A stretch of 64,000 nucleotides of DNA, from assembly GCF_030295405.1 (NCBI RefSeq), contig NZ_AP027080.1:4448001-4512000 (forward strand). Reading direction: 5' to 3'. Both the position numbers and the translations under genes were made by a program. The notes below the pieces were generated by a model. The model did no database searches. It saw nothing but the letters and a program-made list of their open reading frames with translations, and was not told the origin of the DNA. The stretch is from Mesoterricola silvestris. GTDB lineage: Bacteria; Acidobacteriota; Holophagae; Holophagales; Holophagaceae. Positions 28,212-43,812 of the stretch are shown piece after piece (position 1 is the stretch's first letter; each line of letters opens with the position of its first letter).

Positions 28212-29345
28212 ATGATCCGATGCCTCCTCGCCATCTCCTGTCTTCTGGCCACCGTTTCCGCTTCCGCCGATCTCCCGGCCTGGGGGCGCCGCATGGAGGC
28301 CCGGGGCATCCGGGCCTCCGCGGGCCTCTGGGACCTGCAGACCGGTAAGCTCCTTGACGGCTACGACACCGACCGCGCCCTGGTGCCCGCCTCCACCACC
28401 AAGGTGCTCTCCACCTACGCCCTCCTCAAGACCTGGAAGCCCGATTACGAGATCGAGACGGAGGTGTGGGGGGACCTGCGGGGCGGCACGGTGGCGGGGG
28501 ATCTCGTCCTCAAGGGGGCCGGGGACCCGTACCTGACCTCCGAGCGCATCTGGCTCATGGCCGAGGAGCTCAAGGCGCGGGGCGTCACGGCGGTGAGGGG
28601 CCGGGTGCGCCTGGACCAGTCCGCCTTCGACGGCCAGCGCTACGGCGACGGCTGGGAGAACACCTCCTCCAACACCACGCCGCCGGTCCTGCCCCTTTCC
28701 GTGAACTTCAACCGGGACCGGGGCCGCCTGGTGACCGATCCGGAACGCCTGGCCACCGAGACCCTCACCCGGATCTTCATCCAGGACGGCATCGCCGTCG
28801 AGGGCGCCCCGGCCGGCGAAGGGCAGCCCCGCAAGCTCCTGGCCTTCCACTCCCCGCCCCTGCGGGACCTGGTGGCCGACATCAACAAGTTCTCCAACAA
28901 CTTCATGATCGAGATGCTTGTCAAGCGCTTCGGCGGGGGCACCTGGGCCCAGGGCGTCAAGCAGATCCAGGGGTTCTACTCGACCATGCTGGGCCTGGGC
29001 CCGGACAAGGTGGCCATCACCGACGGCTCGGGCCTGAGCAAGGAGAACCGCCTCTCGGCGCGCACCCTGGCCATCGCCCTCCGGGCCGCGTGGAACGACT
29101 TCGAGGTGGGCCCGGAAATGATCGCCTCCCTCAAGATCATCGGCGGGGAGCCCTTCCGCCTCCACATCAAGGACCCCGCCCTGGCCCGGCGCGTGCGGGT
29201 CAAGACCGGCCACCTGGGCGGCGTGTGGAGCGCCTGCGGCTTCCTCCAGACCCGGGACGGCAAGGAGCACGTCTTCGCCATCCTCCTCAACGGCGACTGC
29301 GCCGAAGGGGACGTGTGGGACCAGATCAAGGCCTGGGCGGACTAG
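28212..29345 (+). CDS. dacB: D-alanyl-D-alanine carboxypeptidase/endopeptidase (PBP4 type)
   Basis: 377 residues with a signal peptide (cleavage near SASA). The three penicillin-binding motifs are in order: STTK (nucleophile Ser, about residue 61), SNN and KTG. It is shorter than E. coli PBP4 (477 aa), because the insertion domain between the motifs is reduced. It trims or cuts peptidoglycan cross-links in the periplasm. The type-2 element copy 1 follows its stop. Confidence 0.9.
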   Translation: MIRCLLAISCLLATVSASADLPAWGRRMEARGIRASAGLWDLQTGKLLDGYDTDRALVPASTTKVLSTYALLKTWKPDYEIETEVWGDLRGGTVAGDLVLKGAGDPYLTSERIWLMAEELKARGVTAVRGRVRLDQSAFDGQRYGDGWENTSSNTTPPVLPLSVNFNRDRGRLVTDPERLATETLTRIFIQDGIAVEGAPAGEGQPRKLLAFHSPPLRDLVADINKFSNNFMIEMLVKRFGGGTWAQGVKQIQGFYSTMLGLGPDKVAITDGSGLSKENRLSARTLAIALRAAWNDFEVGPEMIASLKIIGGEPFRLHIKDPALARRVRVKTGHLGGVWSACGFLQTRDGKEHVFAILLNGDCAEGDVWDQIKAWAD

Positions 29346-29350
29346 GCGCG

Positions 29351-29757
29351 CGTGTCCCGGAATTTCGCCCCGGGTCGTGGCTGCGGGCACGGCCCGCAGC
29401 CACGGAAGGATCTCCACCCGGGGATCGGGCTGTGTTTCACCCATTGGCCCCGACCCACGCCGGGGCCTCGCTTCGTGTGGTTCGGGGTGGACCTGGGGAC
29501 GCGCCGACACTGATCGGTGAAGCGATGGCGATCAGCGTCGGCGCCTGCCGGCGTCGGTCTCGCTCACGCGGAGCGAATCCATGCCGCATTGGAAGCCGCG
29601 CGCCAAGCCCGGGGCCTCCCGGAGGGCGCTTCCCTCCCGGACACCCCCCCGCTCAACGAAGCCAATAGGCGTAGCCTAGCCCCATCGTCCCTTCCTCACC
29701 CCCCGTCATCGCCGGCTTGTCCGGTGATGACGACCCGGGGCGCAGGTCCGGAACCCG
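29351..29757. repeat. Type-2 inverted-repeat element, copy 1
   Basis: A ~405-bp non-coding element filling the 417-bp spacer between the convergent dacB and MglA-fusion genes. Terminal inverted repeats: 29354-29377 against 29731-29754 (sharing CGCCCCGGGTCG). Just inside are hairpin 1 (29376-29388/29392-29404, a perfect 13-bp stem) and hairpin 2 (29704-29715/29721-29732). The interior carries TCACCCATTGGCCCCGACCCA and GGCGTAGC, shared with the copy at 40417 in the opposite orientation. No gene is seen in it. Confidence 0.8.
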
Positions 29758-29762
29758 GACGC

Positions 29763-32126
29763 TCAGTTCGCCCTGCTTGCCTTGAGGTCCAGGATCGCCT
29801 GGCGGAGCTTCTTCAGGTCGAAGGGCTTGCCCAGGTGGGGCAGTTTGGCCTGCTCCAGGAAGGCGCGGGTTTCCGGGTCGAAGGAATCGCCGGTGGTGAA
29901 GAGGATGCGGCTGGCCATGGCGGGCTGGTGCTCCTTGATCCACTCGAAGAGCTGGATGCCGGTGAGGCCGGGCATGCGGATATCGGAGACGATGAGGTCG
30001 TAGGCGCCGCCCTGGAGCTTCTGGATGGCTTCGGCCGCCAGGGAGCAGGGGGTCACCTGGCTGCCCCAGGATTCGATGGCGTCCACCAGGCATTCCAGGA
30101 GGAACTGCTCGTCATCCACCACGAGGATGCGGGCACCCTCCAGGTTCGCGGGCACGGACGGGGACGGCGGTGCTTCGGCCATGGACAACTCCACCAGATA
30201 AGCGTTACCAAGTCCTTCCTGGCTGCGGACTGTGACCTTTCCGCCGTGGGCCTTGGCCACGGAGGCGACCACGCACATGCCCAGGGAATCCACGTCGGTG
30301 GCCTGGGCGGGATCGAAGACCCTGCGGGATTCCTCCTCGGAGAGGGCCGGGCCGGTGTCCTGGGCCACCAGCTGCTGCCCGGTGGAGGTCTGCCGGGTGC
30401 CCACCCGCAGGCGCTTGGCGGCGGAACGGGCCGAGGCCCGGATCCCCGTGCGCAGGAGGCAGAGGGTGGCTTCCAGCACCATCCCGGCGTCCATGGCCGT
30501 GGGCTGGAGGGCGGGGTCCAGGGAGAGCTCCACCGAGACGCCCGCGGCCGCCGCCTCCCCTTCCACGCGGCGGGCGGATTCCTGCACCAGCTCGTTGAGG
30601 CTGGCGTTGGCCATGCGCAGCGAGGAGGGGGAGAAGAGCATGAAGAGGGGCTTGAGGAGCATCTGCGCGTGGTCCACGCCCGCCAGGACCTTGGCCAGGC
30701 GCGGGGCGACGACGGGGTCCGCCTCCCCCAGGAGCAGGTCCCGCTGGAGCGTCATGGGGCTGAGCCGGTTGGCCACCTCGTTGAGCATGGGCGGCAGGAT
30801 CCGGGTCAGGACGGCCGCGCCCTGCGCATCGGCGAGCCGGGCCTCCAGGGACTGGCGCTCCCCCTCGTCCCGGATCAGGGCGGAGTACGCCAGGACCCGG
30901 TCGTCGCTGCCGCGGATGGGCGCGTAGGTGACCTTGGCGGGGAACTCCGTGCCGTCCTTGCGCAGGCGCACCGTGGGCACGTCGCGGATGACCTGGCCCC
31001 GGCCCACCTGGGCCATGACCTGGTCCAGTTCCCCGGCGCAGGAGGCCGGGGCCAGCTGGTGGAGGGTGCGGCCCACGATCTCCGCCCGGGCGTAGCCGAA
31101 GATGCGCTCGGCGGCGGCGTTCCACGTGAGGATGCGGCCGTCGGAGCTGAAGGACACGATGGCCTCGCCCACGCTCTGGATGAGGCCCTCCAGGTAGCGG
31201 CGGGTCTTGAGGTTGTCCTGGTTGGCGCGCTCCAGCTGGCCGTAGATCTGGCGGAGCTCCTCGTTCTTCTTCTCCAGGGAGTCCTTCACGGTGCGCAGTT
31301 CGGTGTAGAGCCGCGCGGTCTCCATGTTGGAGGTGAGGGCGTCCTCCAGGAGGTCCTGGGCGTCCGCCACCTTTCCCGGGGCCAGGTCCGTGATGGACAC
31401 GCCGGAATGCCGGAGCACCGTGGATTCCTGCGGGGGCGCCACCGGTTCCGCCGCCCGGGGCAGCTCGTGCATGCTGGCCTTGATATTGGAATCGATGAGA
31501 TTGAGCATCTCGTCGAAGTCCTTGATCTTCTTGTCCAGGTGATACTTCTTGAAGGTGGTGCCCACGGTCTCCCGGGCGATGGCCAGGAAGGTGTCCAGGA
31601 CCCCCTCCCCCCGGTTGGCCATGGATTCGAAGTAGGGCACCGAACGGAAGTTCAAGCGGCGGTTCATGACGCCCACGGGCATGGCGTCCGGGAGATCCCG
31701 CTTGTTGTACTGCAGGACGAAGGGTATCTGCTTGATGTTCAAGCGGTTGGCATTGAGGTTGTGGTAGAGGTTGGAGAGCGAGTCCACGTTCTCCTGCATC
31801 TTGGCTTCGCTGGAATCCGCCACGAACACCACGCCGTCCGAACCGCCCAGCACCACCCGGCGGCTGGCGTCGTACTGCACCTGCCCGGGCACCGTGTAGA
31901 TCTGGAGGTGGATGGCGTTCCCGTAGATGTACCCGAGGTTGATGGGCAGCAGATCGAAGAACAGCGTCCGGTCCTCCTGGGTGTTCACGGAGAACATCTC
32001 GCCCCGGTTGGATTCCGAGCACATGGCGTGGAGCGCCTGGAGATTGGTCGTCTTGCCGGAAAGGCCCGGCCCGTAATAGACCAGCTTCAGCAGGATCTCG
32101 TTCGCGCGGGTGTTGAATTGGACCAT
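29763..32126 (-). CDS. MglA-like GTPase fused to PAS, degenerate histidine kinase and receiver
   Basis: 787 residues. Residues 1 to about 195 are an MglA-type Ras-like GTPase: P-loop GPGLSGKTT (19-27), PGQ (80-82, switch II) and NKRD (141-144). A helical linker with coiled coil (about 255-305) leads to a PAS domain (about 310-430), then a kinase-like region (about 440-650), then a receiver (about 665-787; phospho-acceptor in SDIRMPG, Lys in LGKPF). In the kinase part the H-box His is missing (MLNEVANRL where HEFNN is usual) and the N-box lacks its Asn, so it is probably a pseudokinase. MglA sets cell polarity in Myxococcus; a role in motility or polarity is inference. Confidence 0.88.
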   Translation of the reverse strand: MVQFNTRANEILLKLVYYGPGLSGKTTNLQALHAMCSESNRGEMFSVNTQEDRTLFFDLLPINLGYIYGNAIHLQIYTVPGQVQYDASRRVVLGGSDGVVFVADSSEAKMQENVDSLSNLYHNLNANRLNIKQIPFVLQYNKRDLPDAMPVGVMNRRLNFRSVPYFESMANRGEGVLDTFLAIARETVGTTFKKYHLDKKIKDFDEMLNLIDSNIKASMHELPRAAEPVAPPQESTVLRHSGVSITDLAPGKVADAQDLLEDALTSNMETARLYTELRTVKDSLEKKNEELRQIYGQLERANQDNLKTRRYLEGLIQSVGEAIVSFSSDGRILTWNAAAERIFGYARAEIVGRTLHQLAPASCAGELDQVMAQVGRGQVIRDVPTVRLRKDGTEFPAKVTYAPIRGSDDRVLAYSALIRDEGERQSLEARLADAQGAAVLTRILPPMLNEVANRLSPMTLQRDLLLGEADPVVAPRLAKVLAGVDHAQMLLKPLFMLFSPSSLRMANASLNELVQESARRVEGEAAAAGVSVELSLDPALQPTAMDAGMVLEATLCLLRTGIRASARSAAKRLRVGTRQTSTGQQLVAQDTGPALSEEESRRVFDPAQATDVDSLGMCVVASVAKAHGGKVTVRSQEGLGNAYLVELSMAEAPPSPSVPANLEGARILVVDDEQFLLECLVDAIESWGSQVTPCSLAAEAIQKLQGGAYDLIVSDIRMPGLTGIQLFEWIKEHQPAMASRILFTTGDSFDPETRAFLEQAKLPHLGKPFDLKKLRQAILDLKASRAN

Positions 32127-35117: not shown

Positions 35118-36238
35118 AGCGTCTGCTGTACACGGCCCCCGCCCTCCTCCTGGTCTCCTTCATCCCCGGCGCGGGCTTCTGGGGACCGGTGGTGCTCCTG
35201 GTGGGCCTGATCTTCTTCCATGAACTGGGCCATTTCCTGGTGGCCAAGTGGATGGGCCTGCCCGTGGAGGTCTTCTCCCTGGGCTTCGGCCCCCGGGTGG
35301 CCGGCTTCGCCTGGCAGGAGACGGACGTTCGCCTGTCCCTGCTTCCGCTCGGCGGTTACGTTCGTTTGGCGGGCTACAACCCCGAGGATCCGGACGCCGA
35401 GGACCCCCACGGCTTCCTGGCCCAGCCCGCCTGGAAGCGCATGGCCTTCTATTCCGGCGGCATCCTGGCCAACGTCCTCATCACCGTCGTGATCTTCTTC
35501 TTCCTGGGCATCAACAACGCCCGCACCACCGCCGCCCATCCCCAGCCCTCCCCCCTCCTGGTGGTGGAAGTGAACGCCGGCATGCCCGGCGCCCAGGGCG
35601 GCCTCAAGCCGGGCGACCAGATCACCCGCTTCGGGGATCTGAAATTCCCCGGAAACAGCAACGAGGAGGCCATCACCTACATCCGGGCCCGCTCCGGCCA
35701 GCCCATCCCGGTGGCCCTGGACCGGGAAGGCACGAGCCGCACCCTCACCATCACCCCCGCGGAGGTGGGCGGGGCCGGAAAGATCGGCGTGGCCTTCGAG
35801 CCCTCCAGCTGGACCTTCGACCGGCGGCCCATGCGGGCCGGGGATCTCCTCCTGGGCGCGACCTTCGCGGTGAAGGGCAGCGCGCTCCTCGGCTGGGAGA
35901 TCCTGGGGAATTTCGGCAAGCTGGTGAGCCGCCAGGTCAGCCTCAAGGAAGTGGGCGGCCCCATCACCATCGTGCGGGCCGGAAGCCGTGCGGCCAAGGC
36001 CGGCCTCCTCCAGTTCATGGGCCTCGTCGCCCTGATCTCCATGAACCTCGCCGTGCTCAACGCCCTGCCCATCCCCTTCCTGGACGGCGGCCACGCGGCC
36101 CTGCTGCTCATCGAGAAGATCCGGGGGAAGGACCTGTCGAACCTGGTGAAGGAGCGCATCCTCACCGGCGGGTTCCTGTTCTTCGTGGGGCTGTTCGCGC
36201 TGATCATCTTCCAGGACCTCTGGAAGCTCCGGCACTGA
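35114..36238 (+). CDS. rseP: Site-2 protease RseP
   Basis: 374 residues. HELGH (zinc site, in the first transmembrane part), a single PDZ domain (about 145-230) and the later NALPIPFLDGGH with the third zinc ligand Asp. About four transmembrane helices. It cuts membrane-bound regulators in the envelope-stress response. The E. coli protein has two PDZ domains; one here is common outside Gammaproteobacteria. The gene's last 150 bp are repeated downstream (37261-37341 and 38363-38466). Confidence 0.95.
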   Translation: MKRLLYTAPALLLVSFIPGAGFWGPVVLLVGLIFFHELGHFLVAKWMGLPVEVFSLGFGPRVAGFAWQETDVRLSLLPLGGYVRLAGYNPEDPDAEDPHGFLAQPAWKRMAFYSGGILANVLITVVIFFFLGINNARTTAAHPQPSPLLVVEVNAGMPGAQGGLKPGDQITRFGDLKFPGNSNEEAITYIRARSGQPIPVALDREGTSRTLTITPAEVGGAGKIGVAFEPSSWTFDRRPMRAGDLLLGATFAVKGSALLGWEILGNFGKLVSRQVSLKEVGGPITIVRAGSRAAKAGLLQFMGLVALISMNLAVLNALPIPFLDGGHAALLLIEKIRGKDLSNLVKERILTGGFLFFVGLFALIIFQDLWKLRH

Positions 36239-36307
36239 CCCCATGAGCCCTTCCGTGGCCAACGCCCGGGAATGCCCCTAGGCTTTCCCCGGGAGGGCCC
36301 CGGTCCC

Positions 36308-37240
36308 ATGAGCGTCGCCAATCCGATCTACGATGTCGTCTTCAAGTTCCTCCTGGATGACGAGCGGATCGCGCGGATGCTGCTTTCCGCGCTCCTGGGG
36401 CGGGAGGTGGTGGAGCTCTCCTTCGTGCCCACGGAGACCCGGGAGCCGGTGGCGCGCCCCGATGGCACCAGCCTCCTGGTCCTGCGCATGGACTTCGCCG
36501 CGAAGGTGCTCATGGAGGACGGCAGCCGCAAGCTGGTGCTCATCGAGATCCAGAAGGCCCGCGACACCTCCGACATCCAGCGGTTCCGGAGGTACCTGGG
36601 AACCAGCTACGCCGATCCGCGGAATTCCTACCGGGACGCCCAGGGCGTGGAGCTGCCCCTGCCCATCCTCACCATCTACTTCCTGGGCGAGGGCCTGAAG
36701 GGCCTCGATCTTCCGGTGCTGAGGGTCGACCGGCGCTGCTGGGACCCGGCCACGGGCGACGAGGTCCGCATCGCAGATCCCTTCGTGGAGGCCCTGACCC
36801 ACGATTCGGTCATCATCCAGATGAACCGCCTCAAGGACCGCCGCCGGACCGATCTGGAGCGGCTCCTGGAGGTCTTCGACCAGGGCGTCGCCTCCCACAC
36901 CGACCCCCACTTCCTGGACATCCTGGAGGTGAACTTCCCGGAGCGCTACCGGGACGTGCTTCGCAGGCTCAAGCTGGCCTACTCCGAACCCGGCCTCCGG
37001 GTGAAGATGGACCTGGAGGACGAGATCCTCCACGCCTTCCAGGAACGCGCGAGGGAGGCCGCGGATCTGCGGATTGGCCTGTCGAGCCGGGACCGGGTGA
37101 TCAGCGACCAGGGCAAGGCCCTTGCGGACAAGGACCGGGTGATCGAGGACAAGGACCGGCTGATCGAGGACAAGAACCGGTTGCTCGAGGACAAGGACCG
37201 CACCATCGTCGAACTGCTGCGCCGCCTGGACGCCACCTGA
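36308..37240 (+). CDS. Rpn-family PD-(D/E)XK nuclease, copy 1
   Basis: 310 residues. It belongs to the PDDEXK_2 (Rpn, recombination-promoting nuclease/putative transposase) family. It starts MSVANPIYDVVFKFLLDDE. The catalytic pattern is Asp62, then Glu80-Ile-Gln82-Lys83 (EIQK). The C-terminal tail has four 7-residue units of the type DKDRVIE, probably a coiled coil. Apart from the tail and its last residues it matches copy 3 at every position. Copy 2 differs at two residues. Rpn proteins are tied to DNA uptake and phage defence in E. coli; the role here is inference. Confidence 0.88.
   Translation: MSVANPIYDVVFKFLLDDERIARMLLSALLGREVVELSFVPTETREPVARPDGTSLLVLRMDFAAKVLMEDGSRKLVLIEIQKARDTSDIQRFRRYLGTSYADPRNSYRDAQGVELPLPILTIYFLGEGLKGLDLPVLRVDRRCWDPATGDEVRIADPFVEALTHDSVIIQMNRLKDRRRTDLERLLEVFDQGVASHTDPHFLDILEVNFPERYRDVLRRLKLAYSEPGLRVKMDLEDEILHAFQERAREAADLRIGLSSRDRVISDQGKALADKDRVIEDKDRLIEDKNRLLEDKDRTIVELLRRLDAT
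37127..37210 (+). repeat. 21-bp tandem repeats coding the Rpn copy 1 tail
   Basis: Four in-frame 21-bp units (GACAAGGACCGGGTGATCGA type). The same region has three units in copy 2 (39313-39375) and six in copy 3 (40238-40363). The unit number changes the protein length in steps of 7 residues (310, 303, 324). Confidence 0.9.
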
Positions 37241-37260
37241 AGGACGGCCACACCAGGGGA

Positions 37261-37341
37261 GGAGGCCACGCGGCCCGGCTGCTCTTCGAAAAGATCCGAG
37301 GGAAGGACCTGTCGAACCTGGTGAAGGAGCGCATCCTCACC
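37261..37341 (+). pseudogene. Duplicated rseP fragment, part 1
   Basis: 81 bp matching rseP 36086-36166 with five mismatches that I counted. It lies 20 bp after Rpn copy 1. It breaks off in the middle of the CTCACC/GGCGGG sequence, where a 1021-bp insertion (37342-38362) begins; the match resumes at 38363. Confidence 0.9.
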
Positions 37342-37930
37342 AGAACGCAAGCATGGCGTTGTAGCCGGAGTGGCAGGCCACGCACAGCAGGAGGGACCGG
37401 GTTCGCACGCCGAGGATGCCCAGGGCGATGCCCGCGGAGAATGCGTGGGGCATGAAGCCGGGTTGCCGGTGGTCCAGGGCGAAGGCCGCCGCAGAACCCA
37501 GGATGCCCAGGACTGGGCCATGGCGCCTGGAAGCGACCCGGCAGAAGAGGCCCCGGTAGAGGAGCTCCTCCACGTAGGGCACGATTCCCACCACCTCCAG
37601 GGCGATGGAAGGCGGCACGGGCCCGGGGGCTGGCGGGGCCAGCAGGAGGCGGAGAACCTTGACTCCCGTCAGGAACCCCCAGGGGAGGAGCGCCAGGGGC
37701 CACTCCCAGGGGCGGAAACGTTCCACCGGATGGTACCGGCTGCAGAAGGCGAGGAGGAAGGCCGTCGCCAGGAACGTCGCGGCCAGCGTGGGGCCGCAAG
37801 GCAGCAGCCAAACCCCACCTTCCCCCTCCCAGGCCGCAATGCTTCCCACCCACGCCTTGACGGCCACCATCGCCAGGATATCGCGGAGGCGGACCGCAGG
37901 GAGGTCCCGGGACCAGGGACCCTCCGTCAA
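37337..37930 (-). CDS. CPBP-family intramembrane metalloprotease
   Basis: About 197 residues, several transmembrane helices. The CPBP (Abi) motifs are in order: EELLYRG (EExxxR), FALDH and HSGYN (HxxxN). The stop codon (TGA at 37339-37337) falls inside the rseP fragment at the insertion border, so the C-terminus may be cut short by the insertion junction. The start is probably TTG at 37930, overlapping the stop of the next upstream gene in a TTGA; an ATG at 37870 is the other option. These enzymes cleave membrane substrates, often prenyl or bacteriocin related. Confidence 0.8.
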   Translation of the reverse strand: MTEGPWSRDLPAVRLRDILAMVAVKAWVGSIAAWEGEGGVWLLPCGPTLAATFLATAFLLAFCSRYHPVERFRPWEWPLALLPWGFLTGVKVLRLLLAPPAPGPVPPSIALEVVGIVPYVEELLYRGLFCRVASRRHGPVLGILGSAAAFALDHRQPGFMPHAFSAGIALGILGVRTRSLLLCVACHSGYNAMLAFW

Positions 37931-38362
37931 TTAAGCCAGCGGTGGGTACGATCGGCCACGGGCCTAGATGACATGGGAATGGACTGCCCCATGGCCACCA
38001 ACTGGCCGACAGCCTTCGCGGCATTCAATCCAGCTCGCAGGGTTTCCGATGCGATTTCCGATTTGACGGTCTCCAGGATCGCTCTCCCCACGGGTCCCGT
38101 GGTCGTCCCCTGGGGGCCAGTCCACGCGCTGGAGGAAGATGGGATGTGGCCCGGAATGGCCGCTTGCTGGCGGTGCATCATGCCGCCGGTGATACAGGCA
38201 AGGACCCCATCCTCCAATTTGGGAGGAAGTTTGGATGGAAATGCATCATTGGGGTGGATCATGGGCGCACCTGTTGGAGTACCGAGAACCCTCGGATGGA
38301 GGATCACGTTAGGCCGCGAGGGGTGCCCGTCAATGGCTTTCACACCGGGCGATGGTTTGGCA
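37342..38362. mobile_element. 1021-bp insertion carrying the CPBP gene pair
   Basis: It interrupts the duplicated rseP fragment between 37341 and 38363, with the two flanks matching rseP 36166 and 36167 directly (no lost base, no obvious target duplication). It holds the CPBP protease gene, the small gene before it and about 100 bp with no gene. I see no transposase and no terminal repeats, so the mechanism is unclear. Confidence 0.65.
37927..38262 (-). CDS. Small hypothetical protein upstream of the CPBP gene
   Basis: 111 residues starting at an ATG with AGGTG 6 nt upstream. It ends in a 4-bp overlap (TTGA) with the CPBP start, which suggests the two are coupled. The middle is Pro/Thr/Gly-rich, and the C-terminal half has a helical AILETVKSEIASETLRAG stretch. 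No family is recognised. Support comes from the RBS and the overlap; the composition fits the rest of the 1-kb insertion. Confidence 0.45.
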   Translation of the reverse strand: MIHPNDAFPSKLPPKLEDGVLACITGGMMHRQQAAIPGHIPSSSSAWTGPQGTTTGPVGRAILETVKSEIASETLRAGLNAAKAVGQLVAMGQSIPMSSRPVADRTHRWLN

Positions 38363-38466
38363 GGCGGGTTCCTGGTCTTCGTATGGCTGTTCGCGCCGAT
38401 CATCTTCCAGAACCTCCAGAAGCACTCGATGAGCCGTTCCGTGGCCAACGCCCGGGAATGCCCCTA
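38363..38466 (+). pseudogene. Duplicated rseP fragment, part 2, with the pre-rpn leader
   Basis: It continues the rseP match (36167 onward), diverged, with the stop codon of rseP lost. It then runs in frame into the same short leader that precedes Rpn copy 1 (ATGAGCC...GTGGCCAACGCC..., coding SVANARECP). The leader before copies 1 and 2 is the same over about 60 bp. Confidence 0.85.
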
Positions 38467-38493
38467 GGCTTTCCCCGGGAGGGCCCCGGTCCC

Positions 38494-39405
38494 ATGAGCG
38501 TCGCCAATCCGATCTACGATGTCGTCTTCAAGTTCCTCCTGGATGACGAGCGGATCGCGCGGATGCTGCTTTCCGCGCTCCTGGGGCGGGAGGTGGTGGA
38601 GCTCTCCTTCGTCCCCACGGAGACCCGGGAGCCGGTGGCGCGCCGCGATGGCACCAGCCTCCTGGTCCTGCGCATGGACTTCGCCGCGAAGGTGCTCATG
38701 GAGGACGGCAGCCTCAAGCTGGTGCTCATCGAGATCCAGAAGGCCCGCGACACCTCCGACATCCAGCGGTTCCGGAGGTACCTGGGAACCAGCTACGCCG
38801 ATCCGCGGAATTCCTACCGGGACGCCCAGGGCGTGGAGCTGCCCCTGCCCATCCTCACCATCTACTTCCTGGGCGAGGGCCTGAAGGGCCTCGATCTTCC
38901 GGTGCTGAGGGTCGACCGGCGCTGCTGGGACCCGGCCACGGGCGACGAGGTCCGCATCGCCGATCCCTTCGTGGAGGCCCTGACCCACGATTCGGTCATC
39001 ATCCAGATGAACCGCCTCAAGGACCGCCGCCGGACCGATCTGGAGCGGCTCCTGGAGGTCTTCGACCAGGGCGTCGCCTCCCACACCGACCCCCACTTCC
39101 TGGACATCCTGGAGGTGAATTTCCCGGAGCGGTACCGGGACGTGCTTCGCAGGCTCAAGCTGGCCTACTCCGAACCCGGCCTCCGGGTGAAGATGGACCT
39201 GGAGGACGAGATCCTCCACGCCTTCCAGGAACGCGCGAGGGAGGCCGCGGATCTGCGAATCGGCCTGTCGAGCCGGGACCGGGTGATCAGCGACCAGGGC
39301 AAGGCCCTTGCGGAAAAGGACCGGGTGATCGAGGACAAGGACCGGCTGCTCGAGGACAAGGACCGCACCATCGTCGAACTGCTGCGCCGCCTTGAAACAA
39401 CGTGA
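38494..39405 (+). CDS. Rpn-family PD-(D/E)XK nuclease, copy 2
   Basis: 303 residues, same family and active-site residues as copy 1 (Asp62, Glu80, Gln82, Lys83). Outside the tail it differs from copies 1 and 3 only at residue 51 (Arg for Pro) and residue 74 (Leu for Arg); residue 74 is close to the active-site strand. The tail has three 7-residue units (the shortest). The gene is preceded by the duplicated rseP end and leader, so this copy arose from a duplication that included the end of rseP. Copy 3 starts 13 bp after its stop. Confidence 0.88.
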   Translation: MSVANPIYDVVFKFLLDDERIARMLLSALLGREVVELSFVPTETREPVARRDGTSLLVLRMDFAAKVLMEDGSLKLVLIEIQKARDTSDIQRFRRYLGTSYADPRNSYRDAQGVELPLPILTIYFLGEGLKGLDLPVLRVDRRCWDPATGDEVRIADPFVEALTHDSVIIQMNRLKDRRRTDLERLLEVFDQGVASHTDPHFLDILEVNFPERYRDVLRRLKLAYSEPGLRVKMDLEDEILHAFQERAREAADLRIGLSSRDRVISDQGKALAEKDRVIEDKDRLLEDKDRTIVELLRRLETT

Positions 39406-39418
39406 TGGAGGCCATCCC

Positions 39419-40393
39419 ATGAGCGTCGCCAATCCGATCTACGATGTCGTCTTCAAGTTCCTCCTGGATGACGAGCGGATCGCGCGGATGCTGCTTTCGG
39501 CGCTCCTGGGGCGGGAGGTGGTGGAACTCTCCTTCGTGCCCACGGAGACCCGGGAACCGGTGGCGCGCCCCGATGGCACCAGCCTCCTGGTCCTGCGCAT
39601 GGACTTCGCCGCGAAGGTGCTCATGGAGGACGGCAGCCGCAAGCTGGTGCTCATCGAGATCCAGAAGGCCCGCGACACCTCCGACATCCAGCGGTTCCGG
39701 AGGTACCTGGGAACCAGCTACGCCGATCCGCGGAATTCCTACCGGGACGCCCAGGGCGTGGAGCTGCCCCTGCCCATCCTCACCATCTACTTCCTGGGCG
39801 AGGGCCTGAAGGGCCTCGACCTTCCGGTGCTGAGGGTCGACCGGCGCTGCTGGGACCCGGCCACGGGCGACGAGGTCCGCATCGCAGATCCCTTCGTGGA
39901 GGCCCTGACCCACGATTCGGTCATCATCCAGATGAACCGCCTCAAGGACCGCCGCCGGACCGATCTGGAGCGGCTCCTGGAGGTCTTCGACCAGGGCGTC
40001 GCCTCCCACACCGACCCCCACTTCCTGGACATCCTGGAGGTGAATTTCCCGGAGCGGTACCGGGACGTGCTTCGCAGGCTCAAGCTGGCCTACTCCGAAC
40101 CCGGCCTCCGGGTGAAGATGGACCTGGAGGACGAGATCCTCCACGCCTTCCAGGAACGCGCGAGGGAGGCGGCGGATCTGCGGATTGGCCTGTCGAGCAG
40201 GGACCGGGTGATCAGCGACCAGGGCAAGGCCCTTGCGGACAAGGACCGGGTGATCGAGGACAAGGACCGGGTGATCGAGGGCAAAGACCGGCTGATCGAG
40301 GACAAGGACAAGGCCCTCGGGGACAAGGACCGGTTGCTCGAGGACAAGGACCGCACCATCGTCGAACTGCTGCGCCGCCTTGAAACGACGTGA
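39419..40393 (+). CDS. Rpn-family PD-(D/E)XK nuclease, copy 3
   Basis: 324 residues, the longest copy, with six 7-residue tail units (40238-40363) and otherwise the same protein as copy 1 up to the tail. Only 13 bp separate it from copy 2, so the two are probably one transcript. The rseP-derived leader found before copies 1 and 2 is missing, so this copy came from a second, shorter duplication. The type-2 element copy 2 begins 23 bp after its stop. Confidence 0.88.
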   Translation: MSVANPIYDVVFKFLLDDERIARMLLSALLGREVVELSFVPTETREPVARPDGTSLLVLRMDFAAKVLMEDGSRKLVLIEIQKARDTSDIQRFRRYLGTSYADPRNSYRDAQGVELPLPILTIYFLGEGLKGLDLPVLRVDRRCWDPATGDEVRIADPFVEALTHDSVIIQMNRLKDRRRTDLERLLEVFDQGVASHTDPHFLDILEVNFPERYRDVLRRLKLAYSEPGLRVKMDLEDEILHAFQERAREAADLRIGLSSRDRVISDQGKALADKDRVIEDKDRVIEGKDRLIEDKDKALGDKDRLLEDKDRTIVELLRRLETT

Positions 40394-40416
40394 TGGAAGG
40401 CCACTGGAGCCTGGCA

Positions 40417-40893
40417 ACGTAATCGTACGCGTCCCGGACTTTCGCCCTGTTTCGTCATCGCCGGCCAAGCCGGCGATGACGGGGGATGCGGAAGAGATGT
40501 TGGGGCTGTGCTACGCCCAACTCACTTCGTTGAGCAGAAGGGAATTCGGAAGGGAATGGCTCTCCTGGAAGGCCAAGACGAGGAGAGCGGCTCCCATGGG
40601 TTTGTGGGTTTGCTTCGCGATGGCCCTCTCGGTGCCGGTGGGCGCCGACGCTGTTTTGAAGTTGGCTCGAGCCCAGACCTGCTGAAGGGCTGGTTCGAGA
40701 CGAGGTCGCTTTTCCTAATGAGCGTTGGCGCGGTCCAATGCCCTCCTCGCAGCACTCGAAGAGAGGCCCTGAGGTGGGTCGGGGCCAATGGGTGAAAACA
40801 CAGGCCCAACCATGGGGTGAGAGCATTCCGTTGCTGCGGGCTTGGCCCTCAGCAACGAACCGGGGCGAAAGTCCGGGACACGTGCGATTACGT
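40417..40893. repeat. Type-2 inverted-repeat element, copy 2
   Basis: 477 bp in the 510-bp spacer between convergent Rpn copy 3 and the DUF2007 gene. The terminal inverted repeats are 38 bp (40417-40454 and 40856-40893) with only a few mismatches; both begin ACGTAATCG. Hairpins lie inside each end: 40453-40465/40469-40481 (a perfect 13-bp stem) and 40829-40841/40845-40857 (13 bp, one mismatch). It is homologous to the element at 29351, in reverse orientation. No convincing gene. Confidence 0.85.
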
Positions 40894-40903
40894 AGCCAGG
40901 CTC

Positions 40904-41227
40904 CTAGGCCTGGCGTTCCCCCTGGCATTTCCAGCAGGACTGGAACTGGGGTTCCAGGACTTCCCCGCATGCGGGGCAGGTCCAGGGTTCCCCTTCCGGG
41001 GCCTTGCGGAGGAGCTCGAGGTAGTCCTGGACGAAGGCCTTGGCCCGGGGGGCGTCGGCGTCGTCCAGCACCCAGACCTCGGGGAGGAGGCCGCGGATGT
41101 TGTAGAGCTCGCCCCGCACCGAATGGTGGGCGCCGCCCCGCACTTCGGCGGGGACGCCCTTCTCGCACAAGTACACGGCGATCAGATTCCCCTCCCGAAG
41201 GTTGATCGCTTCATGAACGGCCTTCAC
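40904..41227 (-). CDS. DUF2007-type protein with C-terminal zinc ribbon
   Basis: 107 residues starting with GTG behind GGAGG. Residues 1-70 resemble DUF2007 (putative signal-transducing domain; REGNLIAVYLCEKGVPAEVRGG). The C-terminal 25 residues form a zinc ribbon, CPACG and CWKC. The protein is small and cytosolic; function unknown. It lies 10 bp after smpB on the same strand, so it is likely cotranscribed. Confidence 0.75.
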   Translation of the reverse strand: MKAVHEAINLREGNLIAVYLCEKGVPAEVRGGAHHSVRGELYNIRGLLPEVWVLDDADAPRAKAFVQDYLELLRKAPEGEPWTCPACGEVLEPQFQSCWKCQGERQA

Positions 41228-41237
41228 GGTTCCTCCG

Positions 41238-41696
41238 TCAGCTGTGGTCGCCCTTGCGGACCCGGTCCATTTCCCGCTTCTGCTCCCGCTCCTTCAGGGC
41301 CTCGCGCTTGTCGCCCAGGGTCTTGCCCTCGGCCAGGGCGATGCGCACCTTGATCCTGCCCCGGGGGGTGAGGTAGATGGCCAGGGGGATCACCGTGTAG
41401 CCCTTGCGGGTGGCCTTGGCCATGATCTTGTCGATCTCGGCCCGGTTCAGCAGGAGCTTGCGGGGGCGCAGGGGGTCGTGGTTGGCGTAGGTGCCGAACT
41501 CGTAGGGGCTGATATGGGCCTGTTTGAGCCACAGCTCGCCCCCGGTGGCGTCCACGTACGCGTCCTGCAGCTGCCCGTGGCCGCCGCGCAGGGACTTCAC
41601 TTCGGTGCCCAGGAGCGCCACGCCGGCCTCCCAGGTGTCGACGATGTGGAAGGCATGGAGCGCCTTCCGGTTGCGGACCAGGTCTTCAGTCATCAT
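41238..41696 (-). CDS. smpB: SsrA-binding protein SmpB
   Basis: About 152 residues with the OB-fold segments VRNRKALHAFHIVDTWEAG, GTEVKSLR, HISPYEFG, the loop RPRKLLLNR and the basic C-terminal tail. It pairs with tmRNA to rescue stalled ribosomes; no ssrA gene was found in this window. Two ATGs (41696, 41693) are adjacent; either could be used. A TAGACT sits 6 nt before the second. Confidence 0.96.
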   Translation of the reverse strand: MMTEDLVRNRKALHAFHIVDTWEAGVALLGTEVKSLRGGHGQLQDAYVDATGGELWLKQAHISPYEFGTYANHDPLRPRKLLLNRAEIDKIMAKATRKGYTVIPLAIYLTPRGRIKVRIALAEGKTLGDKREALKEREQKREMDRVRKGDHS

Positions 41697-41738
41697 TCCA
41701 GTCTATCCCGGTTAGGCTAGGGGGATCAGGAGACACCA

Positions 41739-42386
41739 GTGCTTCATAAAATCCTCGCCCCGATCATCGTCTGGATGACCGCCGTCATGGCGGCCATGGG
41801 ACCCCTGGGGGTCGCCCTCCTCATGGGCATCGAAAGCGCCTGCATCCCCCTCCCCAGTGAAGTGATCATGCCCTTCGCCGGGTTCCTGGCCTTCAAGGGG
41901 CAGATGACCTTCCTGGGCCTGGGGGCCGGCAGCCCGGTGGCCCAGATCTGGATCGCGGGGATCTTCGGGGCCCTGGGGTGCAACCTGGGCTCCATCCCCG
42001 CCTACGAGCTGGGGGCCTGGGGTGGCCGCAAGGCGGTGGAGCGCTACGGGAAGTACGTCCTCCTCAACCTGGACCACCTGGACCAGGCCCACCGCTTCTT
42101 CGAGCGGTTCGGGCGCTGGGCCATCCTCATCGGGCGCATGCTCCCCGTGATCCGCACCTTCATCGCCCTGCCCGCGGGCATCGCGAAGATGGACCGCACG
42201 AAATTCCACCTGTACACCTTCGCCGGCAGCCTCCCCTGGTGCCTTGTCCTGGCCTGGGTGGGCTTCAAGCTGGGCGAGAAATGGGACACCCTGGGGGTCT
42301 GGTTCCACCGCTTCGACCTGGTCATCGGGGTGGGGATCGTGGCGGGGATCGTCTGGTTCCTTTGGAGCCATCTCCGGAAGCGTTAA
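41739..42386 (+). CDS. DedA-family membrane protein
   Basis: 215 residues beginning with GTG; AGGAG lies 6 nt before. DedA (SNARE-associated/VTT) features: PLPSEVIMPFAGFLA, the GALGCNLGSIPAYELGAWGG segment and FERFGRWAILIGRMLPVIRTFIALPAGIA, with the conserved Gly/Arg/Pro of the re-entrant loop. Family members flip phospholipids or undecaprenyl phosphate and affect membrane potential. It is 10 bp before the MscS gene and likely cotranscribed with it. Confidence 0.92.
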   Translation: MLHKILAPIIVWMTAVMAAMGPLGVALLMGIESACIPLPSEVIMPFAGFLAFKGQMTFLGLGAGSPVAQIWIAGIFGALGCNLGSIPAYELGAWGGRKAVERYGKYVLLNLDHLDQAHRFFERFGRWAILIGRMLPVIRTFIALPAGIAKMDRTKFHLYTFAGSLPWCLVLAWVGFKLGEKWDTLGVWFHRFDLVIGVGIVAGIVWFLWSHLRKR

Positions 42387-42396
42387 TATCTCAACC

Positions 42397-43812
42397 ATGT
42401 TTCGAGACCTCCGCACGGCCGTGAGCTCCACCCGCAGGATCGCGGCCTTCGGCCTGCTGATCCTGGCCCTGGGCCTGGGCGCCTACGTGCTGGGCACCCA
42501 GCACCAGCATCCGCGGTTCATCCAGGCCGCCGGAACCATCTTCTGGGTGGTGGGGGCCTACCTGGGGATCCGCGTCTTCACGTACGTCCTCCTGGATCCC
42601 CTGCTGAGCAACCGGGAGACCGCCGTCCCGGGCTTCGCCCGGGACCTGGTGGTCTTCGGATTGTACGTGGGAGCGGCCGTGCTGCTCCTCCACAAGGCGG
42701 GCGGGGTGAACCTGGGGGCGATCCTGGGCACCGGCGCCATCGCCGCGGCCGTGGTGGGCCTTTCCCTCCAGGAGACCCTGGGCAACCTCTTCGCGGGCAT
42801 CTCCCTCCACCTGGACGAGGCCTTCCGGCCCGGGGACTGGATCGAGGTCACGGGCAACCTCCGCAACATGGCCGGCCAGGAGACCTTCGTGGGCCAGGTG
42901 GAGACCATGACCTGGCGGTCCGTGCAGATCCTCACGGAGAACGGGGACACCACCGTTTTCCCCAACCGCATCCTGGCCCAGGCGGTGGTCACCAACCTCT
43001 ACGCCCCCTCCGGGCTGCACCGCCGCACCCTGAAGGTCACCGTGGAACCCCACGGCCCCATGGTCGACACCGTGGCGGCCCTGGAGCAGGCCCTGGGCGG
43101 CATTCCCCACTACCCCCACCGCAAGCCCGAGGTGGTCACCCACAGCTTCGACATGGGGGGCGTGGTCCTGGAACTGCGCTGGTGGGCCCTGGGCTGGCGC
43201 CACGGGCGGGCCGCCAACTTCCTGGCGGTGCGCCTCACCCAGACCGTCCTCAACCGCCGCGGCGTCCCCCTCCTGGGTCCCCACGGCGCCACCACGCCCC
43301 GGTCCGTCCCCATCGTCCTCCCGGAGGGCGCCGTCCCGGACATCCTGGAGCGCATCGGGCTCCCCCCGGATTGGGCCGACGAATTGCGGGAGGGCATCAT
43401 CCTCCGCCGGGCCGCGCCCGGGGAGGCCGTCATCCGCGCCGGGGACCCGGGCGGGTCGCTCTTCATGGTCATGCAGGGCGGCCTGCAGGTGGTGCGCGTG
43501 GCCGAACGCACCGAGCCCTACACGGGCCTCTACTGGGAGGAGCTGGCCGAGCTGAAGCCCGGGGACTGGTTCGGGGAGGGCTCCCTGCTCACCGGCGCCG
43601 TGCGCAGCGCCACCGTTGTGGCCAGGACCCCCTGCGAACTGGTGGAACTGCCCAAGGCCGCCTTCGAGAAGTGCGTGCAGCGCAACCCCCAGGTGGTGGA
43701 CCGGCTGGTGGACCTCATGGAATCCCGGTCCCTGCGCATGAACGAGGCCCCCAAGGCCGAGTCCCGGCGCGAGGAATGGCTCGCCCAGATCAAGAACTGG
43801 TTCCGGCTGTGA
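42397..43812 (+). CDS. MscS-family channel with C-terminal cyclic-nucleotide-binding domain
   Basis: 471 residues. Three to four transmembrane helices, then the MscS pore and beta domain (GTGAIAAAVVGLSLQETLGNLFAG, FRPGDWIEV, FPNRILAQAVVTN), then a CAP-like cNMP-binding domain (about 335-450; AAPGEAVIRAGDPGGSLFMVMQG and GDWFGEGSLLTG). This resembles bCNG channels, where cyclic nucleotide gates the MscS pore. The usual phosphate-binding Arg-Ser pattern (RSA) is present after LLTGAV, so ligand binding is plausible. Confidence 0.9.
   Translation: MFRDLRTAVSSTRRIAAFGLLILALGLGAYVLGTQHQHPRFIQAAGTIFWVVGAYLGIRVFTYVLLDPLLSNRETAVPGFARDLVVFGLYVGAAVLLLHKAGGVNLGAILGTGAIAAAVVGLSLQETLGNLFAGISLHLDEAFRPGDWIEVTGNLRNMAGQETFVGQVETMTWRSVQILTENGDTTVFPNRILAQAVVTNLYAPSGLHRRTLKVTVEPHGPMVDTVAALEQALGGIPHYPHRKPEVVTHSFDMGGVVLELRWWALGWRHGRAANFLAVRLTQTVLNRRGVPLLGPHGATTPRSVPIVLPEGAVPDILERIGLPPDWADELREGIILRRAAPGEAVIRAGDPGGSLFMVMQGGLQVVRVAERTEPYTGLYWEELAELKPGDWFGEGSLLTGAVRSATVVARTPCELVELPKAAFEKCVQRNPQVVDRLVDLMESRSLRMNEAPKAESRREEWLAQIKNWFRL

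Follow-up and report, generated by a model that had tools for sequence, protein, structure and literature searches.

Downstream of the last of three Rpn-like genes, the chromosome of Mesoterricola silvestris carries about 0.5 kb of DNA bounded by inverted repeats, a locus that raises the questions of whether this sequence is a mobile element, where exactly it ends, what could have moved it and whether its Rpn-like neighbours have any part in it. The window analysed here is a stretch of 64,000 nucleotides (contig NZ_AP027080.1, positions 4,448,001 to 4,512,000; assembly GCF_030295405.1); features inside it are given in window coordinates and other sites of the genome in chromosomal coordinates. 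The sequence belongs to a real family of miniature inverted-repeat elements (MITEs), ordinary in kind, elaborately built and seen in one genus only, of which the copy in question is a typical member. The family probably derives from a DDE transposon with long and complex ends and was probably inserted into CTAG by a trans-acting transposase.

Structure and boundaries of the element

The element occupies positions 40407..40903 of the plus strand (497 bp) and consists of a short core flanked by two terminal modules in inverted orientation; both end points were placed by aligning 22 copies from the same genome together with their flanks. On the left, a terminal inverted repeat (40407..40452, plus strand) is followed by a sub-terminal hairpin with a perfect 13-bp stem and a 3-nt loop (40453..40481, plus strand), and on the right the corresponding hairpin (40829..40857, plus strand), whose 13-bp stem has one mismatch in this copy, is followed by the second terminal repeat (40858..40903, minus strand). 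Further inside lies a box, GGGTCGGGGCCAATGGGTGA, that is kept in old copies (40776..40795, plus strand). The right end adjoins a CTAG (40904..40907), in which the TAG of the reverse strand is the stop codon of the neighbouring convergent ORF, a zinc-ribbon-like gene (40904..41227, minus strand). At the left end, the letters CT-G (40404..40406) probably represent a CTAG that has lost its A, judging from the other copies.

The inverted repeat pairs 40406-40474 with 40836-40904, that is 69 nt per arm at 83% complementarity, and the single-strand folding energy of this copy has a z of -12.1 relative to 100 shuffles; the repeat is not due to chance. The initial annotation had described 38-bp arms at 40417-40454 and 40856-40893, beginning ACGTAATCG, with hairpins just inside them. 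These arms are real and both hairpins were found, but the arms are only the inner part of the 69-nt repeat. Likewise, the 23 bp counted from the stop codon of the third Rpn gene (40391-40393) to the start of the annotated arm is correct, but the true end of the element lies 13 bp from that codon.

The ORF that runs into the element (40380-40685) has no Pfam match, and Rfam models found nothing in positions 36000-42500 of the window up to E 1. The last part of this ORF (40650..40685, plus strand) reads ..VLKLARAQTC followed by a stop, and might conceivably be the remnant of a transposase tail.

A family of dispersed copies in one genus

A BLAST search of the genome (one contig, 4,994,678 bp) with this copy returned 74 matching pieces, which include ten further copies of nearly full length with 84-90% identity. 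We built a covariance model (R1) of the 80-nt end from 30 ends; it matches both ends of the copy at 40407 (E 1.8e-23 and 1.4e-22), by construction since both were in the building set, and it detects at least 149 ends in the genome at E 0.01 or better, out of the 150 candidates scored. Among the matches listed, pairing of opposite ends yields 55 two-ended copies and 39 unpaired ends, with lengths of 277-550 bp for 47 of the 55 pairs and of 85-137 bp for the remaining eight. Two of these eight, one of 85 bp at 2308289 and one of 88 bp at 1931216, are longer copies in which a hairpin matched itself; their real right ends, at 2308657 and 1931590, were entered as unpaired, so that the stop-codon and flanking-orientation counts given below used a wrong right end for both. 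The others are short elements in which both ends share one hairpin. For seven of the unpaired ends, a weak partner end was detected inside their own locus. The window itself holds a second, older copy, recognised by the end model (29326..29782, minus strand). The closest pair among the 22 aligned copies is 94.3% identical, which gives no sign of recent activity or of a burst.

Among 41 genomes searched with R1, matches occur in six, all of the same genus. Under stricter filters there are 113 ends in M. silvestris and 2, 3, 2, 9 and 7 in the five congeners (G001 to G005, respectively). Phage and plasmid collections, from which this and near genomes may be absent, gave no family match. Exact matches to the end pattern were found in 29 contigs of the genome_contigs collection, of which only that of Holophagaceae MAG UBA692, apparently the same as G005, also fits the end model well; one of the 29, from Streptomyces, has an end-model E of 5e-4. 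The inner box has no exact match among viral contigs, a collection from which near genomes may likewise be absent.

Two side observations concern unusual copies. At one end of copy 3815689 (L092), the terminal repeat of the family is combined with a hairpin stem that is longer and very unlike the usual one. Several one-ended modules (L093, L274, L279, L286, L291, L292) adjoin a GATGAA-rich repeat (..GGGATGAATCGGATGAACAGGATGAAGGGGATGAA..) that apparently represents another repeat family.

Element-free sites and the insertion target

We joined 100 nt of each flank for 20 sites of the M. silvestris genome and searched the five congeners with them. Ten of the 20 sites have a match that spans the junction without the element in at least one congener, and at the other ten either one flank only or nothing spanning the junction was found in the five genomes. 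The element-free sites are 3885913 (in G001, G004 and G005), 2274610 (G005), 1919884 (G004, with a single CTAG), 4010706 (G002, which reads CTAGCTAG), 4477326, the site of the second copy of the window (G001, G003, G004 and G005), 2976098 (G005), 2658885 (G005, with one TTAG), 4976359 (G004), 3151390 (G004 and G005) and 4053167 (G005). The cleanest case is 3885913, where G004 and G005 read ..TTCTAG.., with one CTAG that provides the stop codon of both convergent genes, and M. silvestris reads CTAG-element-CTAG. Unrelated short indels are present at several junctions, so the ends are not fixed by every site. The element itself was seen in a congener at none of the 20 sites. The empty sites to which the initial annotation had looked in relatives thus exist, with a single CTAG at the best one, and together with the sharp ends and the dispersed copies they bear out its description of a mobile-type, non-coding element that lacks a transposase.

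Sites of M. silvestris that are interrupted in a relative carry other DNA there, as far as the long inserts were inspected. At the orthologue of site 4010706 in G004 and G005 (L187, L188), for example, inspection by eye suggests a small toxin-antitoxin cassette, with CTAG on both sides in G005.

Of 118 ends inspected, 52 have an intact outer repeat, and these are flanked by CTAG (17), CTAA (3), GTAG (2), TTAG (1) or other sequences (29). Many copies have lost their target sequence, presumably where no stop codon maintains the CTAG. The presence of CTAG on both sides of the element and a single CTAG at the element-free 3885913 fits a target-site duplication of either 4 bp or 2 bp, a 4-bp duplication of CTAG being indistinguishable from a TA duplication inside CTAG. 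The same element might have been moved by an IS630-type transposase that duplicates TA. In keeping with that reading, IS630 copies in G004 are inserted in CTAG, some flanks of the family fit TA better (for example, GTAG/CTAC at 371964 and TTAG/CTAG at 2301146), and RUP, whose ends resemble IS630-Spn1 according to the consulted part of its description (PMC3049150), provides a precedent. We nevertheless consider it rather unlikely, as the ends of the G004 IS630 copies are unlike those of the element, site 2988826 is bordered by TTAG at either end, which is the outcome predicted for a 4-bp duplication, and DDE_3 is not matched in the M. silvestris genome. IS630 and IS701 copies of congeners (L251, L262, L213, L233, L238, L031) are also found in CTAG, sometimes beside the same element ends, which points to CTAG as a target shared within the genus.

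Insertion at stop codons

A stop was counted as gene-like if it ended at least 120 open codons with GC3-GC2 above 0.25 and lay within -40 to +60 of an element end; these thresholds and the control offsets were set after inspection of the data. For the 55 pairs among the matches listed, gene-like stops occur at 73 of 110 ends; of 1100 flanking control positions, 47 have one (4.3%). Counted per copy, 22 have such a stop at both ends, 29 at one end and four at neither, and the stop codons concerned are TAG (50), TGA (15) and TAA (8). The genes flanking the 55 copies are convergent in 24 cases, tandem in 19 and divergent in two, the other ten having no assigned orientation. CTAG occurs only 25 times in the window, which is 69% G+C, where base composition would predict 181 occurrences and a second-order expectation about 61; 11 of these 25 CTAGs are at gene-like stops. 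Since CTAG is rare and often located at stops, a CTAG target is enough to direct insertions to gene ends, with no dedicated machinery needed. Both strands of CTAG contain TAG and the insertion leaves CTAG on both sides, so both neighbours keep their stop codons; insertions would therefore be harmless and pile up at gene 3' ends. A rare palindromic target that serves as a stop codon on both strands would allow a transposon, by simple means, to persist without harm in a dense genome of high G+C content.

The neighbouring Rpn-like genes

The third Rpn-like gene (39419..40393, plus strand) lies outside the element, and its proximity, together with the naming of Rpn proteins as putative transposases, had raised the question of a link between nuclease and element, to be checked by whether copy number follows Rpn. 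The distribution of the two does not support such a link. An Rpn protein is encoded at one of 60 M. silvestris loci with copies or ends, namely the locus of the reported copy, where the check covered two genes of the tandem three. All five congeners contain Rpn-like DNA, yet each has only 2-9 element ends. The three ORFs themselves match TIGR01784 at 15-17 bits, the cut-off being 52.1, and have no Pfam family at E 0.05. In the orthologous loci, rseP and the zinc-ribbon ORF are separated by 10 bp in G004, 15 bp in G002 and 49 bp in G005, and in G001 rseP directly precedes smpB. None of these four loci contains the three Rpn-like genes or the element.

Adjacency alone connects the two, and we rejected Rpn as the transposase of the element. 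That Rpn proteins mobilise it is extremely improbable: one copy is located 13 bp after an Rpn-like gene, but the other M. silvestris loci examined lack Rpn, the congeners have Rpn-like DNA but few elements, and the Rpn genes form a tandem array of copies whose second member is preceded by an rseP-like tail. The three tandem genes extend over 36272-40393 of the window, and in the ORF that precedes the second of them the C-terminus of rseP is present as a degenerate copy, which suggests that the cluster probably grew by duplication of a unit consisting of an rseP tail and an Rpn gene.

Hairpins and the conserved inner box

Covariation in the sub-terminal hairpin was analysed in 120 ends from M. 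silvestris and its congeners (E 5e-8 or better; 74 loci given). In the 11-bp stem, 97.3% of cells are paired and 10 of the 11 pairs show double-sided changes. The structure of the whole model outscores all 500 shuffles as well as each of its slid versions, a score favoured by an alignment that had been fitted to the structure. The stem sequence varies among subfamilies (CATCGCCGGC, GCTGCGGGC, GGCGCAG and others), and compensated stem changes occur in some individual old copies. In the consensus fold of 28 two-ended copies, most of each module is paired with the other module. Co-evolution of left and right hairpins within an element found no support, as their mean similarity is 0.743 vs 0.729 in permuted pairs (p 0.30; 12 pairs left of 42 after removal of those with the CATC/CCTC stem).

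Of 118 ends, 34 have the box GGGTCGGGGCCAATGGGTGA at a constant distance inward of the right hairpin with at most two mismatches, and in 24 of these it is exact. In nine old copies, which differ from the young-copy consensus by 17-28%, this box, chosen as the most conserved after inspection of the data, has no changes in 171 positions, as compared to 866 in 3692 elsewhere. The nine copies came from BLAST, which may favour an intact box, and copies detected by their ends only were therefore checked: the box is exact in 2258356, 4426343 and 457112 and has one mismatch in 2242285, and other ends-only ends lack the inner box altogether. Six right modules without a detected partner (457112, 2242285, 2684743, 3419502, 3540825 and 4683288), which are presumably immobile since the other end was not found, have 0, 1, 1, 0, 3 and 0 mismatches per 20 nt, respectively. 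Younger copies show eight box changes in 11 copies, in a comparison whose branch lengths are inflated where flanks were aligned. The box is absent from the congener loci examined.

Neutral decay after insertion does not explain this conservation. The elements may have begun as MITEs whose surviving modules now function in place, as a structured RNA or a protein-binding site at gene 3' ends, for instance as a two-way terminator or a stabiliser of mRNA 3' ends, which would be the source of the constraint on hairpin and box. Such a function would account for the unchanged box of the nine old copies, its retention in the six one-ended modules, the compensated stem changes in individual old copies and the location at gene 3' ends. 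We regard it as unlikely, because the element was seen in no congener at the 20 sites checked, the box does change in younger copies and is absent from the congener loci, the copies read show no U-tract after their hairpins, and the same pattern would arise if active source elements had been under constraint before they inserted. A still more specific scenario is similarly doubtful: the modules might be a domesticated structured element, selected at gene 3' ends after the loss of mobility by way of the covarying hairpin and the near-invariant 20-nt box, and serving across the genome as 3'-end signals, with a role in termination, stability or the binding of proteins, which each species rebuilds from its own MITEs. 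The copies, being of graded age and in part one-ended, make it possible to ask whether remnants turn into working 3'-end signals.

The transposase and the origin of the family

In the preferred reading as a MITE moved in trans, each end forms a module of about 230 bp in which the CTAG target is followed inwards by a terminal repeat of some 45 nt, the sub-terminal hairpin, further conserved boxes and an inner CAGCGTYGGCGC box. Two such modules face each other across a short core that would once have contained the transposase, and a transposase acting in trans would have put the element into CTAG. Movement in trans, as had been proposed from the sequence, would call for a partner transposase; none was found in the M. 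silvestris genome at the sensitivity of the family models used, and the partner has presumably been lost. Models of the IS701, DDE_3 (IS630), DDE_5 and DDE_Tnp_1_6 families had no match in this genome, and the IS1182 model had two weak ones (E 0.02 and 0.083), which coincide with the only two DDE_Tnp_1 matches and represent two copies of one IS4/5-type element.

The best lead to the transposase class comes from a relic in the congener G004 (L041), which points to an IS701-like enzyme. This relic is 1.23 kb long and contains the remains of an IS701-family transposase (NF033540, E 2.6e-26); like the M. silvestris element, it has CTAG on both sides, sub-terminal hairpins and homologous inner modules, its ends aligning with M. 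silvestris copies over about 200 nt per side (69% over 201 nt for own_244218, E 9e-12). The relic differs in that transposase remains are present and in the outermost ~30 bp, which makes it a relative and not the parent. We also rejected as direct partners the intact IS701 and IS630 copies found in G001 and G004, since the ends of the former are unrelated and those of the latter differ.

IS1182 was likewise considered as a parent and rejected. In the core of copy L012, a longer version of the tail peptide aligns with the final 22 aa of the IS1182 model at a borderline E of 0.041; the IS1182-type loci inspected have other ends, and IS1182-type proteins of congeners gave no convincing match to the element interiors.

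Comparison with known elements

The consulted portion of the report on MITEPsy1 of Pseudomonas syringae describes an element of 100 nt with 18-nt repeats and without a transposase that has been seen to move, inserts behind CTAG or YTAA, duplicating 4 nt, and is proposed to originate from the related ISPsy2 (PMC3189936). As portrayed there, MITEPsy1 resembles the Mesoterricola element in being short and free of a transposase, with terminal inverted repeats and insertion at CTAG. The Mesoterricola element differs from it in its size of about 0.5 kb, two long modules, sub-terminal hairpins and inner boxes. RUP and BOX of Streptococcus pneumoniae, again as far as covered by the text consulted, are present in many dispersed copies with terminal inverted repeats and are enriched between convergent genes, and RUP, at 107 bp, has IS630-Spn1-like ends and folds tightly with its terminal repeats paired (PMC3049150). 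Compared by description and not by sequence, the Mesoterricola family shares with them the dispersed copies, the terminal repeats, the bias towards convergent genes and the folds in which terminal repeats pair. REP/BIME elements are defined by a RAYT transposase gene in the genome and by units that are palindromes of 20-40 bp, as opposed to a Mesoterricola unit of ~0.5 kb with long terminal repeats. What is apparently the same convergent gene pair carries a short single-hairpin element in G005 (L043) and a one-ended right module in M. silvestris (L093, 2242285), which may reflect either shared ancestry or two insertions at one site.
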